From: Candidatus Kapaibacterium sp.
GTDB lineage: Bacteria; Bacteroidota; Ignavibacteria; Kapaibacteriales; UBA4661
Direction of reading: 5' to 3'
NCBI GenBank assembly: GCA_004292595.1
Contig: RDXM01000115.1
Coordinates: 1-34,844 of the forward strand
Length of the DNA stretch: 34,844 nucleotides
This document shows, piece by piece, positions 3,020 to 9,411 of this stretch. The first letter of the stretch is position 1. Every line of letters starts with the position of its first letter. The position numbers were made by a program, and so were the translations under genes. The notes beneath the pieces were generated by a model. That model saw only the letters and a list, made by a program, of their open reading frames with translations, was not told the origin of the DNA and did not search any database.

Positions 3020-3211
3020 AAGAGCAACGAATAACGAAATAATTCCAAGAGCGTCACCGAAAAATATCACCCGAAAAGCACGGTAAAATCGGAGTTTCTT
3101 GCTATGTTTGCAAGAGCGCAATCGTACAAAGTCTGTATTGTCGCCACGATGATACAGGCTTTTTTCATTCCAACTCATTTTCTTCTCCTTCATTTTCTTC
3201 TCCTTCTGGTC

Positions 3212-4264
3212 ATGAAATTTCTTATTCAATTCTCCGGCGTTGCTCTTGGCTTATACTTGGGATTGTATCTGGCTCCGAACAAACCTCGCCCAGCATGGTG
3301 GCGATGGATTGCCATTCTTTCGGTCAGCCTGACCGTGCTTCTGGGGCTCGCACCGCGAACGGCTGGAAATTTTTCCGATGCAGTTCTCATGCGCCGTGCA
3401 GGAATGATGCCGAAAGTTCCCGTGAAAGTGCAAATTCAGCATGAAACCAAAACTATTGATGCCGCAAGTAAATACGCCACGTTTCAAATGACTGATTTCA
3501 GCGAAGGTGCGCCCGTGCAAGCGGTCGTACGCTGTTCAGAACCTCTTGCCAATCAACTCACCGGCGTAGAACGCGCTATTTTGCTTATTGAGCGCGACAG
3601 CACCGCCAATGACGGTGTTTTTATTGCGCAGGAATGTATTGCCGCAAACCCGCTTCTGACCTTGCCGTTTATCCCGCAGCTTCAGGAACGCGCACGGAAT
3701 CTGTATTTCCACGTGCCAATGTCGTGGGTGGGAATGCTTGCATACATCTTAGCAATGTTTTACGGCTTTCGTTACCTGAAAACACGCGCCCTGCACTACG
3801 ACATCTATGCGGCGGCGGCGGCGGGCTTGGGAACGCTGTTTACCTTTCTGGCAACGGTTACGGGCGCAATTTGGGCAAAATTCGACTGGGGTTCATTTTG
3901 GAATTGGGACCCGCGCCAAACCTCAATTTTCATTCTTTTGCTCATGTATGGCGCATACTTTGCGCTTCGCCAAGCCATCGACAACGATGAGCGCCGCGCT
4001 CGGCTTTCTGCGGTATATGTGATTTTTGCGGTTATTCCTGCGGTTTTTCTCATTTATATTATGCCGCGCATTTTGGATGGTTTACATCCTGGCGCGGGCA
4101 ATGACGCAAGTGCCGGACCAATTCTCAGTACAAAAAAAGAAGAACTGAACGTGATAAAACAGGTCATTTTCTCGCTTGCTTTTGGCTCATTTACCATGAT
4201 TTTCTTTTGGATGCACTCGCTCCAAGTCCGCATACAATCTCTTGTGCGAGCAAAGCAGGAATGA
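3212..4264 (+). CDS. CcmC/CcsA-type cytochrome c assembly membrane protein with embedded CcmE-like segment
   Basis: A 350-residue inner-membrane protein of the heme-handling family used in cytochrome c maturation. Two hydrophobic segments (about 5-22 and 32-48) are followed by a soluble stretch, 66-147, whose pattern (ATFQMTDF, VQAVV, GVFIAQECIAANP) resembles the OB-fold of the heme chaperone CcmE. The covalent heme-binding histidine expected just after that pattern is absent. The CcmC-like part begins with FHVP at 166-169, has the WGSFWNWD tryptophan-rich heme motif at 226-233, and keeps a candidate axial histidine at 292. I place the start at the ATG at 3212 (MKFLIQFSG); an upstream in-frame ATG at 3104 would add a repetitive HFLLLHFLLLL leader made by a 15-bp duplication. 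No other ccm gene is adjacent; an EamA transporter follows 72 bases later. Confidence 0.8.
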   Translation: MKFLIQFSGVALGLYLGLYLAPNKPRPAWWRWIAILSVSLTVLLGLAPRTAGNFSDAVLMRRAGMMPKVPVKVQIQHETKTIDAASKYATFQMTDFSEGAPVQAVVRCSEPLANQLTGVERAILLIERDSTANDGVFIAQECIAANPLLTLPFIPQLQERARNLYFHVPMSWVGMLAYILAMFYGFRYLKTRALHYDIYAAAAAGLGTLFTFLATVTGAIWAKFDWGSFWNWDPRQTSIFILLLMYGAYFALRQAIDNDERRARLSAVYVIFAVIPAVFLIYIMPRILDGLHPGAGNDASAGPILSTKKEELNVIKQVIFSLAFGSFTMIFFWMHSLQVRIQSLVRAKQE

Positions 4265-6978: not shown

Positions 6979-7092
6979 CCAAAATGGCGTTGTCTGCGCT
7001 TGGAATGCCACTTCTGCAACCTTTTTCCCGCATAAACGTCTCTCAAAAGAGCCACAATTCTTCGCTTGAACGCCTCTTTTACGGTTGCCGTT

Positions 7093-9411
7093 ATGAAATA
7101 TTCCTCAAAATATTCCACGCCTCAGAACAAGGATACTGCTCTCGTTGTTTTGCTCATGCTTGTTCTCGCAATATTTTTCACTCCTTTTCTCCATCTTCAC
7201 GCTGGAGGAGAAGGCGATAAAACTTCTGCACTAAAAGCAGATAGCAACGGCGTGGTGATGTTGCGCAAGGAGTCTCTACGCGGAACAGCAATTCCCGAAA
7301 CAATGAGACTTGGGGTTATGCATCCAGGCGTGTGGCTCTGGAAACAAGCCGACGCACCAGAATTTGCCGCGCAAAACCTTGACGAAAGCTCATGGAAGCT
7401 CGTTCAGCGCGTGAGTGCCGATACTATGCGTCCCGACTGGAAGCGCGTCTTTTGGCTGCGTTCCCACATCCGCATTGATTCTGCCTTGCGCTATACGTCG
7501 GTCGCGCTCTTGCCCTTTGGCGTTGGCGCAGCCGAATACTACTTGAATGGACAACTTGTCGGCGTTATCGGGCGACCCAGCAATTCTGATAGCAATGAAG
7601 TCGTGATTCTCTCTCGCGGCAAGCCATTTGTTTTACAATTTGGCGCAGAACTGGACAATGTTCTTGCCGTGCGATACTCGTTTCATGCGATGCCGCTTGG
7701 CTATAAAGCCGTTCCCTACGTCAAACATGAGCCGATTGTTTCCCTGTATTTCGCGCCAGTGGATGAAGCACTGGCAATGCAGCGCAAAAAAGAAAACTAT
7801 TTTTCGGTGCGATATTTAATTGCAATCGGGATGATGCTCTCGCTCGGATTGCTCCATTTGACGCTCTTCGCACTGAATCGTGCGCAAACATTTCACCTGC
7901 TGTATTCCGTATTCACCTTCCTTGTTGGTCTGCGTTTTTTAACTGTGTACATGGAAAGTATTGTTGAAACGCATCCTGCCATCGCGCTCTTTTTTATGGT
8001 GATTCACAATTTCTACAACAACGCAATACCGCTTGTTTGCTGGCTTTTCTTCTATTCGTTGTTTGGCGAGCGTTGTTCGCGCCGTCGTTTGGTTCTTGCG
8101 TGCGGTGCGACGCTGTTGGTGATTATTGGTCTATTCATAACGGGCGGGAAGGCGCATAGCTACGTGTATGATGTTTCAATGGTTGTTATTTTGCTGCTCG
8201 CCTTCGATGCCGCACGAATCGCCTTCAACGCGCTTCGTCGCAAAGAACCAGGCGCAGGCGTGATGCTCTTTGGGATTGTGGATTTCGGCTTGATGTGGAC
8301 AATTCGCTGGTTTGCTGGTTTTTCGTGGTTTCCCTTCACGATAGGTCAGAGTCCGATGGAAACGTTTGTTTACATCGGCTATATGTCTGTTCCGCTCACG
8401 ATGTCCCTCTACATCGCGCTTGTTATCTCGCGTACGCAGCGTTCTTTGCAGGAGCAGATTGTTCAGGTAAAAGAACTTTCGGCGAATGCGTTGGAGCAGG
8501 AACGACGCGCCAAAGAGGCAGAAATCAGTCGCTCGCTCTTGGAAGCGGACAACGACCGCAAAACCCGTGAACTTGAGGAAGCACGCGCTCTCCAGCTTTC
8601 CATGCTGCCAAGCAAACTGCCCCAGCATCCGCGCTTTGACATTGCCGCTTTTATGCGCACCGCAAGCGAAGTCGGCGGCGATTACTACGATTTCCGCTTG
8701 TCGGAAGATGGAAAAACCTTAATTTCTGCCGTTGGCGATGCCACTGGACACGGCATGAAAGCTGGTTATTTGGTCTCAACAACAAAAAGTTATTTCCAAA
8801 CCTTAGCCCGCGAATCTGGTGGCGCGGAATTGCTGACACGCATTTCGCATGGCATCAAGAACATGAATCTGCGCGGAATGTATATGTGCCTCGCGCTGGT
8901 GCGCTGCGAAACGACCGAGCAAGGAACTATCAGGGCGCACATTGCTATTGCGGGAATGCCACCGATACTGATTTATCGCGCAAAAACACGCTCGGTAGAG
9001 GAAATTTGTCTGAAAGCCTTGCCGCTTGGCAGCATCACTAGTTTTTTGTATCAAGAACTTGTTACTACGCTCGACACCGACGATGTTCTCTTCATTATGA
9101 GCGATGGCTTTCCCGAACTTTTCAACGCGGAGCAGGAAACACTAGATTCTGAGCGCATTGTGGAGTATTTCCAGACGATTGCGCATCACTCTCCCGCAGA
9201 GATTATGACCGCGCTCAAACTTTTTGCCGAACAATGGACAGAAGGCGCACCGCCACTTGATGATATGACAATGGTGGTGATGAAAGTGCTGCCGCTCAAG
9301 CAACCACGCACACTCGAAACAAACAGAACGCCTGAACACCGATTGGAATCAGCACTGAAGCTGCCGCTTGGCAATAAAGAATTTTTGCAGAAATCGTTGC
9401 AAGAAGCATAG
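7093..9411 (+). CDS. Membrane-anchored PP2C/SpoIIE-type serine phosphatase with extracytoplasmic sensor and multi-TM region
   Basis: A 772-residue signalling protein. A signal or first membrane segment (about 14-36) is followed by an extracytoplasmic domain of about 200 residues with a beta-sandwich-like pattern (VFWLRSHIRID, AAEYYLNGQLVGVIG), then about seven membrane segments (241-449), a coiled coil (450-510) and a C-terminal SpoIIE-type PP2C phosphatase (about 510-770). Metal-binding motifs are intact: GGDYYDF near 528, GDATGHG near 548, SDGFPEL near 669 and DDMTMVV near 723. The layout resembles 7TM-DISM receptors coupled to PP2C output, which dephosphorylate anti-sigma-factor antagonists. 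No anti-sigma kinase or STAS protein is nearby, so the partner is unknown. The ATG at 7093 is preferred; a TTG at 7066 would add nine residues. Confidence 0.88.
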   Translation: MKYSSKYSTPQNKDTALVVLLMLVLAIFFTPFLHLHAGGEGDKTSALKADSNGVVMLRKESLRGTAIPETMRLGVMHPGVWLWKQADAPEFAAQNLDESSWKLVQRVSADTMRPDWKRVFWLRSHIRIDSALRYTSVALLPFGVGAAEYYLNGQLVGVIGRPSNSDSNEVVILSRGKPFVLQFGAELDNVLAVRYSFHAMPLGYKAVPYVKHEPIVSLYFAPVDEALAMQRKKENYFSVRYLIAIGMMLSLGLLHLTLFALNRAQTFHLLYSVFTFLVGLRFLTVYMESIVETHPAIALFFMVIHNFYNNAIPLVCWLFFYSLFGERCSRRRLVLACGATLLVIIGLFITGGKAHSYVYDVSMVVILLLAFDAARIAFNALRRKEPGAGVMLFGIVDFGLMWTIRWFAGFSWFPFTIGQSPMETFVYIGYMSVPLTMSLYIALVISRTQRSLQEQIVQVKELSANALEQERRAKEAEISRSLLEADNDRKTRELEEARALQLSMLPSKLPQHPRFDIAAFMRTASEVGGDYYDFRLSEDGKTLISAVGDATGHGMKAGYLVSTTKSYFQTLARESGGAELLTRISHGIKNMNLRGMYMCLALVRCETTEQGTIRAHIAIAGMPPILIYRAKTRSVEEICLKALPLGSITSFLYQELVTTLDTDDVLFIMSDGFPELFNAEQETLDSERIVEYFQTIAHHSPAEIMTALKLFAEQWTEGAPPLDDMTMVVMKVLPLKQPRTLETNRTPEHRLESALKLPLGNKEFLQKSLQEA

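Follow-up and report, generated by a model that had tools for sequence, protein, structure and literature searches.

The ccmC-type gene at positions 3212-4264 of the window (the whole stretch of 34,844 nucleotides that was analysed, from Candidatus Kapaibacterium sp.) encodes a protein that carries an additional folded domain within its first periplasmic loop. Our overall reading, which we hold with rather more confidence than doubt, is that this domain derives from CcmE and serves as a docking module or lid, itself not loadable with heme, in loop 1 of CcmC. We found no description of a CcmC with a built-in CcmE-like domain in the open full-text literature, which covers both the CcmC-CcmE interaction and structures of CcmABCD. 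The features discussed below are as follows (residue numbers are those of the 350-amino-acid product).

3212..4264, + strand: ccmC-type gene with inserted OB domain, 350 aa (PF01578, TIGR01191, Foldseek to 8ce1_C and 7f02_C)
3212..3268, + strand: extra N-terminal membrane helix, residues 1-19 (helix 2-19 in the model)
3293..3349, + strand: helix equivalent to CcmC TM1, residues 28-46 (model and structural alignment)
3359..3646, + strand: inserted, putatively CcmE-like OB domain, residues 50-145 (AlphaFold2 models and profile-profile match; missing in insert-free relatives), with predicted barrel strands at residues 69-83, 88-95, 103-109, 121-128 and 136-145
3665..3697, + strand: loop-1 segment PFIPQLQERAR, residues 152-162, counterpart of the E. 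coli CcmE-docking segment (site: PMC6204919)
3710..3712, + strand: P-His1, H167, equivalent to E. coli His60 (invariant in 58 sequences; E. coli alignment)
3887..3916, + strand: WWD heme-handling loop WGSFWNWDPR, residues 226-235 (conserved)
4085..4087, + strand: P-His2, H292, equivalent to E. coli His184 (invariant; E. coli alignment)

An earlier, sequence-only reading had described a CcmC-like protein here, and its coordinates, reading frame and cited motifs all proved correct when the translation was re-read. An in-frame ATG lies upstream, at 3104; it is unlikely to be the start, since conservation among homologues sets in at 3212. The product passes the gathering score of PF01578 (90.7 bits against 29.9; E = 1.3e-25), and its best NCBIfam model is TIGR01191 ccmC (1.6e-30), whose cut-off of 186 bits, a curated score threshold and no biological feature, it misses at 106 bits. 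An AlphaFold2 model of the whole protein (mean pLDDT 87, pTM 0.84) aligns with 7f02_C (VIA Z 19.5 over 212 residues, rmsd 2.8, 24% identity) and with 8ce1_C (VIA Z 18.9); H167, H292 and WGSFWNWDPR vary little or not at all among 58 sequences and align with their E. coli CcmC counterparts, where, as described in PMC9616876, formation of holo-CcmE needs both P-His1 and P-His2. As judged from these sequence and model comparisons, the product is the CcmC subunit of the System I (Ccm) heme-delivery complex, with heme loading as its predicted activity. Structural alignment to 7f02_C begins at residue 20, and the helix that precedes it is therefore extra with respect to E. coli CcmC; this helix goes with the insert in Kapabacteria and in genome G217, whereas neither family f18 nor the ten-row clade considered below has it. 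With regard to the surrounding genes, a reading of their translations alone suggests a GMC-type oxidoreductase-like protein upstream of ccmC (199-2265) and, downstream (7066-9411), a membrane protein whose C-terminal part resembles PP2C/SpoIIE-type phosphatases, neither of which has any apparent tie to cytochrome c maturation.

Scans of Pfam and NCBIfam returned no match for residues 66-154. The sequence-only reading had taken residues 66-147 as a CcmE-like segment lying between the first two membrane segments and the FHVP/WGSFWNWD core, and that placement was right: the insert forms an extra domain of periplasmic loop 1, between TM1 (residues 28-46 of the model) and the helix that bears P-His1 (FHVP, H167). 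The segment itself also stands, with boundaries that are better drawn at approximately 50-145; P147 and LPFIP belong to CcmC's own loop, because insert-free relatives retain a comparable P..W..FPxIPxLE loop. In the AlphaFold2 model residues 69-145 run strand-strand-strand-helix-strand-strand, and the same elements are obtained when the domain is folded alone (mean pLDDT 88), such that the domain is confidently predicted, with pLDDT near 90 in both settings, to be a five-stranded OB barrel. This agrees with the barrel that had been supposed at the outset, as do the matches of the domain in the PDB, all OB folds: SSB, RPA, MCM and CcmE itself (8ce8_E; Foldseek probability 1.00, TMq 0.50, rmsd 3.0). 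By fold search alone CcmE comes no closer to the insert than SSB or RPA; since the OB folds of SSB, RPA and MCM rank equal to or above it, fold alone cannot single out CcmE, and this ranking lends some weight to a generic OB domain of other origin, structural or protein-binding, whose likeness to CcmE would be due to convergence.

What argues against such a generic domain is the sequence profile, by which (in profile-profile comparison) the insert resembles CcmE SPECIFICALLY. When a profile built from 58 insert sequences was compared, using hhalign, with one built from 40 CcmE extracted from the same phylum, the two matched with 94.6% probability (P = 7e-8, score 44.4, 76 columns), against a score of 10.3 +/- 2.0 and a maximum of 18.5 for 298 column-shuffled profiles; these shuffled controls rule out a chance or compositional likeness. 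The likeness is also specific, in that SSB, used as a control OB family, reached 0.2% against the insert profile (noise level), and the parts of CcmC outside the insert gave no match to the CcmE profile. With the boundaries drawn strictly, it is seen again in two separate, non-overlapping sets, one holding only the Kapabacterial and related inserts and the other only a nine-sequence clade, each of which matched CcmE at 88-92%. Enlarging the CcmE profile by 12 CcmE of other phyla gave 95.2%, whereas those 12 alone gave 46% (score 26.8; 200 shuffles at or below 17.4), and the likeness is therefore greatest for CcmE from within the phylum, the most likely source of the insert. The insert of the nine-sequence clade matched the same 12 at 1.7%.

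On the other side, the weakness of the out-of-phylum match would suit a domain of other origin, as would the lack of significance with PF03100: the window domain falls below the cut-off (0 families), one of 53 inserts from relatives matches (E = 0.015), and whole-genome PF03100 searches returned the separate CcmE only, never the insert. The CcmE pattern that had been noticed by eye is thus upheld by profile-profile comparison, where it exceeds every shuffle, and is not recovered by the plain PF03100 search. In an hmmsearch of the insert profile against 177,635 PDB sequences, CcmE 2kct is one of the three hits listed (E = 1.3), collinear over 78 residues and ranking behind two HisF chains, a match that is suggestive and not significant. 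Taking both sides together, we regard a generic OB domain as quite unlikely, and descent of the insert from CcmE as a homology that the profiles make likely rather than proven.

The insert corresponds to the CcmE barrel without the CcmE-type C-terminal heme tail. Alignment of the inserts at the place of the HXXXY/CXXXY motif showed no conserved His or Cys, and across the domain as a whole none of His, Cys and Met is conserved in any column; position 128 carries Tyr in 40% of the sequences, and most of the remainder have Arg there. The earlier observation that the heme-attachment histidine is missing is therefore true, with neither His nor Cys at that place in the insert; saying this, the type of residue looked for needs amending from histidine, since the genome's own CcmE uses the cysteine of a CXXXY motif (KCPSKY, near the C-terminus). 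All 40 of the CcmE extracted from the phylum (e.g. L001:1396-1785) carry CPSKY or a CXXXY variant close to it. These findings bear upon the idea that the domain is a second heme carrier, binding heme non-covalently and then passing it on, to which its heme-chaperone look and its position adjoining the P-heme site in sequence might point; since the domain conserves no His, Cys or Met, and the barrel of E. coli CcmE has no heme pocket by NMR, heme being taken by the C-terminal tail only (PMC6204919), we consider this very improbable.

Profile searches of the window genome found a CcmF and single copies of CcmE and CcmB; for CcmH there was no match. The separate ccmE, with its CPSKY, is thus present, and the insert does not replace CcmE because the genome has CcmE, CcmB and CcmF of its own; replacement is likewise rejected because 93 of 99 relatives have ccmE as a separate gene, and the notion of a fusion that links both heme steps falls with it. 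A role in place of CcmD is also unlikely, as small CcmD-like ORFs come after ccmC in relatives (PF04995, the CcmD family, is not sensitive in these genomes). In the window genome (G000) the ccm genes that were found lie on separate contigs (ccmB on C68, ccmC on C85, which is the window, ccmE on C125 and ccmF on C93), unlike those of relatives, in which ccmC, a small CcmD-like ORF, ccmE and ccmF are neighbours. Of ten genomes searched for CcmH (PF03918), only one had a match. A second small, membrane-anchored CcmE-like protein, lacking a CXXXY/HXXXY motif, occurs in 42 of the 99 relatives and was not found in the window genome; its gene usually sits directly 3' of ccmE and 5' of ccmF (L047:6633-6986, + strand; L215:2112-2528, - strand), and its product matches CcmE by hhalign at 97.6%, has no significant Pfam match, and bears conserved histidines in a GHVHGG..YFHA-type signature. 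An origin of the insert from this second protein is unsupported (26%, against 95% for CcmE).

The named relatives are metagenome-assembled genomes of Ignavibacteria/Kapabacteria. The window protein is matched in 97 of 99 genomes searched within the order, approximately 88 of which, by our own count, align through the insert, and the domain stands at the same place throughout the order (Kapabacteria). Most other Ignavibacteria of the phylum match from the core onward only, i.e. without the insert, which turns up again in two further families of the class, f16 and f18. When presence of the insert is mapped onto a tree of the CcmC core, well-supported branches force two changes, with a ten-row insert-bearing clade nested among insert-free Ignavibacteria as sister to L104. 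The two insert groups are closer to each other (96-99%) than either is to CcmE, and in view of this mutual likeness, two gains and a single origin followed by transfer or loss are equally possible. One insert-bearing CcmC, L082 (PABJ01000124.1), is titled Ectothiorhodospiraceae and nests among Bacteroidetes/Ignavibacteria MAGs; its bin or label is probably wrong.

The insert has changed in sequence at a far higher rate than the CcmC core (mean column identity 26%), which might be taken as the mark of a non-functional relic of a fusion event, a term that the sequence-only reading had also used. Three close pairs gave dN/dS values of 0.04, 0.11 and 0.025 for the insert, against roughly 0.01 for the core, and from these sequence comparisons the insert is under purifying selection, constrained less than the core. 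Retention across the order and low dN/dS thus contradict a decaying relic, as does preservation of the barrel, and we regard that reading as extremely improbable.

Drawing these lines of evidence together, we propose a speculative model for what a CcmE-derived module might do in loop 1. In E. coli, CcmE docks on Asp47, Gln50 and Arg55 of CcmC loop 1 (PMC6204919), residues that stand just before P-His1. In the equivalent segment of the window protein, residue 159 is acidic and residue 162 basic in 58 of 58 sequences. R162 is the counterpart of Arg55 in the alignment, and the insert enters loop 1 immediately upstream; given that position, the barrel would therefore lie over CcmC's periplasmic heme site. 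We suggest that the protein carries a tethered, non-loadable CcmE-like module at, or beside, the docking surface and above the heme, which may help to position CcmE, or may cap the heme until CcmE binds, whilst the separate CcmE would remain the heme carrier. A docking or positioning role is plausible on these grounds, if somewhat short of an even chance. The docking-loop sequence of CcmE itself (PNNFE and similar) looks alike whether or not a genome has the insert, so that no co-adaptation is visible.

The same evidence, a CcmE-like fold and profile at the docking segment and a domain without the attachment residue, would also suit a gate that mimics CcmE, in which the domain acts as a lid in cis on the docking segment, protecting the periplasmic heme until displaced by the real CcmE, and so serves to time heme loading or release rather than to aid docking. 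Against this, the insert is the OB core only, with no CcmE-type C-terminal heme tail, and we think such a gate unlikely. A broader idea, in which heme hand-over proceeds by a relay of CcmE-like modules rather than a single shuttle (the tethered, heme-dead copy in CcmC and, in many members, the motif-less paralogue), is one that we put forward only as a rather doubtful conjecture. Between gate and docking module, the latter is the more cautious choice.

Recognition between CcmC and CcmE, and the release of holo-CcmE, are open questions, and cryo-EM work (PMC9616876, PMC10457321) describes the docking of CcmE as weak, mobile or unresolved. A lineage bearing the insert may offer a stabilised complex. 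A CcmE-like domain beside the mapped docking segment may also allow a clean deletion test of the function of the docking surface, and the Kapabacteria, a whole order of uncultured bacteria, provide a natural test of heme hand-over from CcmC to CcmE. If descent from CcmE is true, then a transporter can take into itself a duplicated and disarmed copy of its own interaction partner.

Finally, the system can be set beside those already known. A CXXXY-type CcmE is known from Desulfovibrio and archaea, in a Ccm system without CcmH (PMC9084895), and the window genome is alike in its CPSKY CcmE and in that no CcmH was found; the portions of that account on which we draw mention no domain insertion in CcmC, unlike the CcmC of the window. 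The heme chaperone CcmE (PF03100; 8ce8_E, 2kct) has in common with the insert an OB barrel and a collinear sequence profile, and differs in having the H/C-XXX-Y heme-attachment motif, whereas the insert is without it, is embedded in CcmC and lies below the PF03100 cut-off. The WWD heme-handling core is shared with CcsBA and CcmF (TIGR03144 7e-14; VIA Z 10.8 and 9.2), which are lyases that attach heme to cytochrome c; unlike these, the window protein has a size and motifs like those of CcmC. With E. coli CcmC (7f02_C, 8ce1_C) it has in common the heme-handling core, P-His1, P-His2, the WWD loop and the arrangement of transmembrane helices, but where the E. coli protein is without an extra N-terminal helix and without a folded loop-1 domain, the window CcmC has both.
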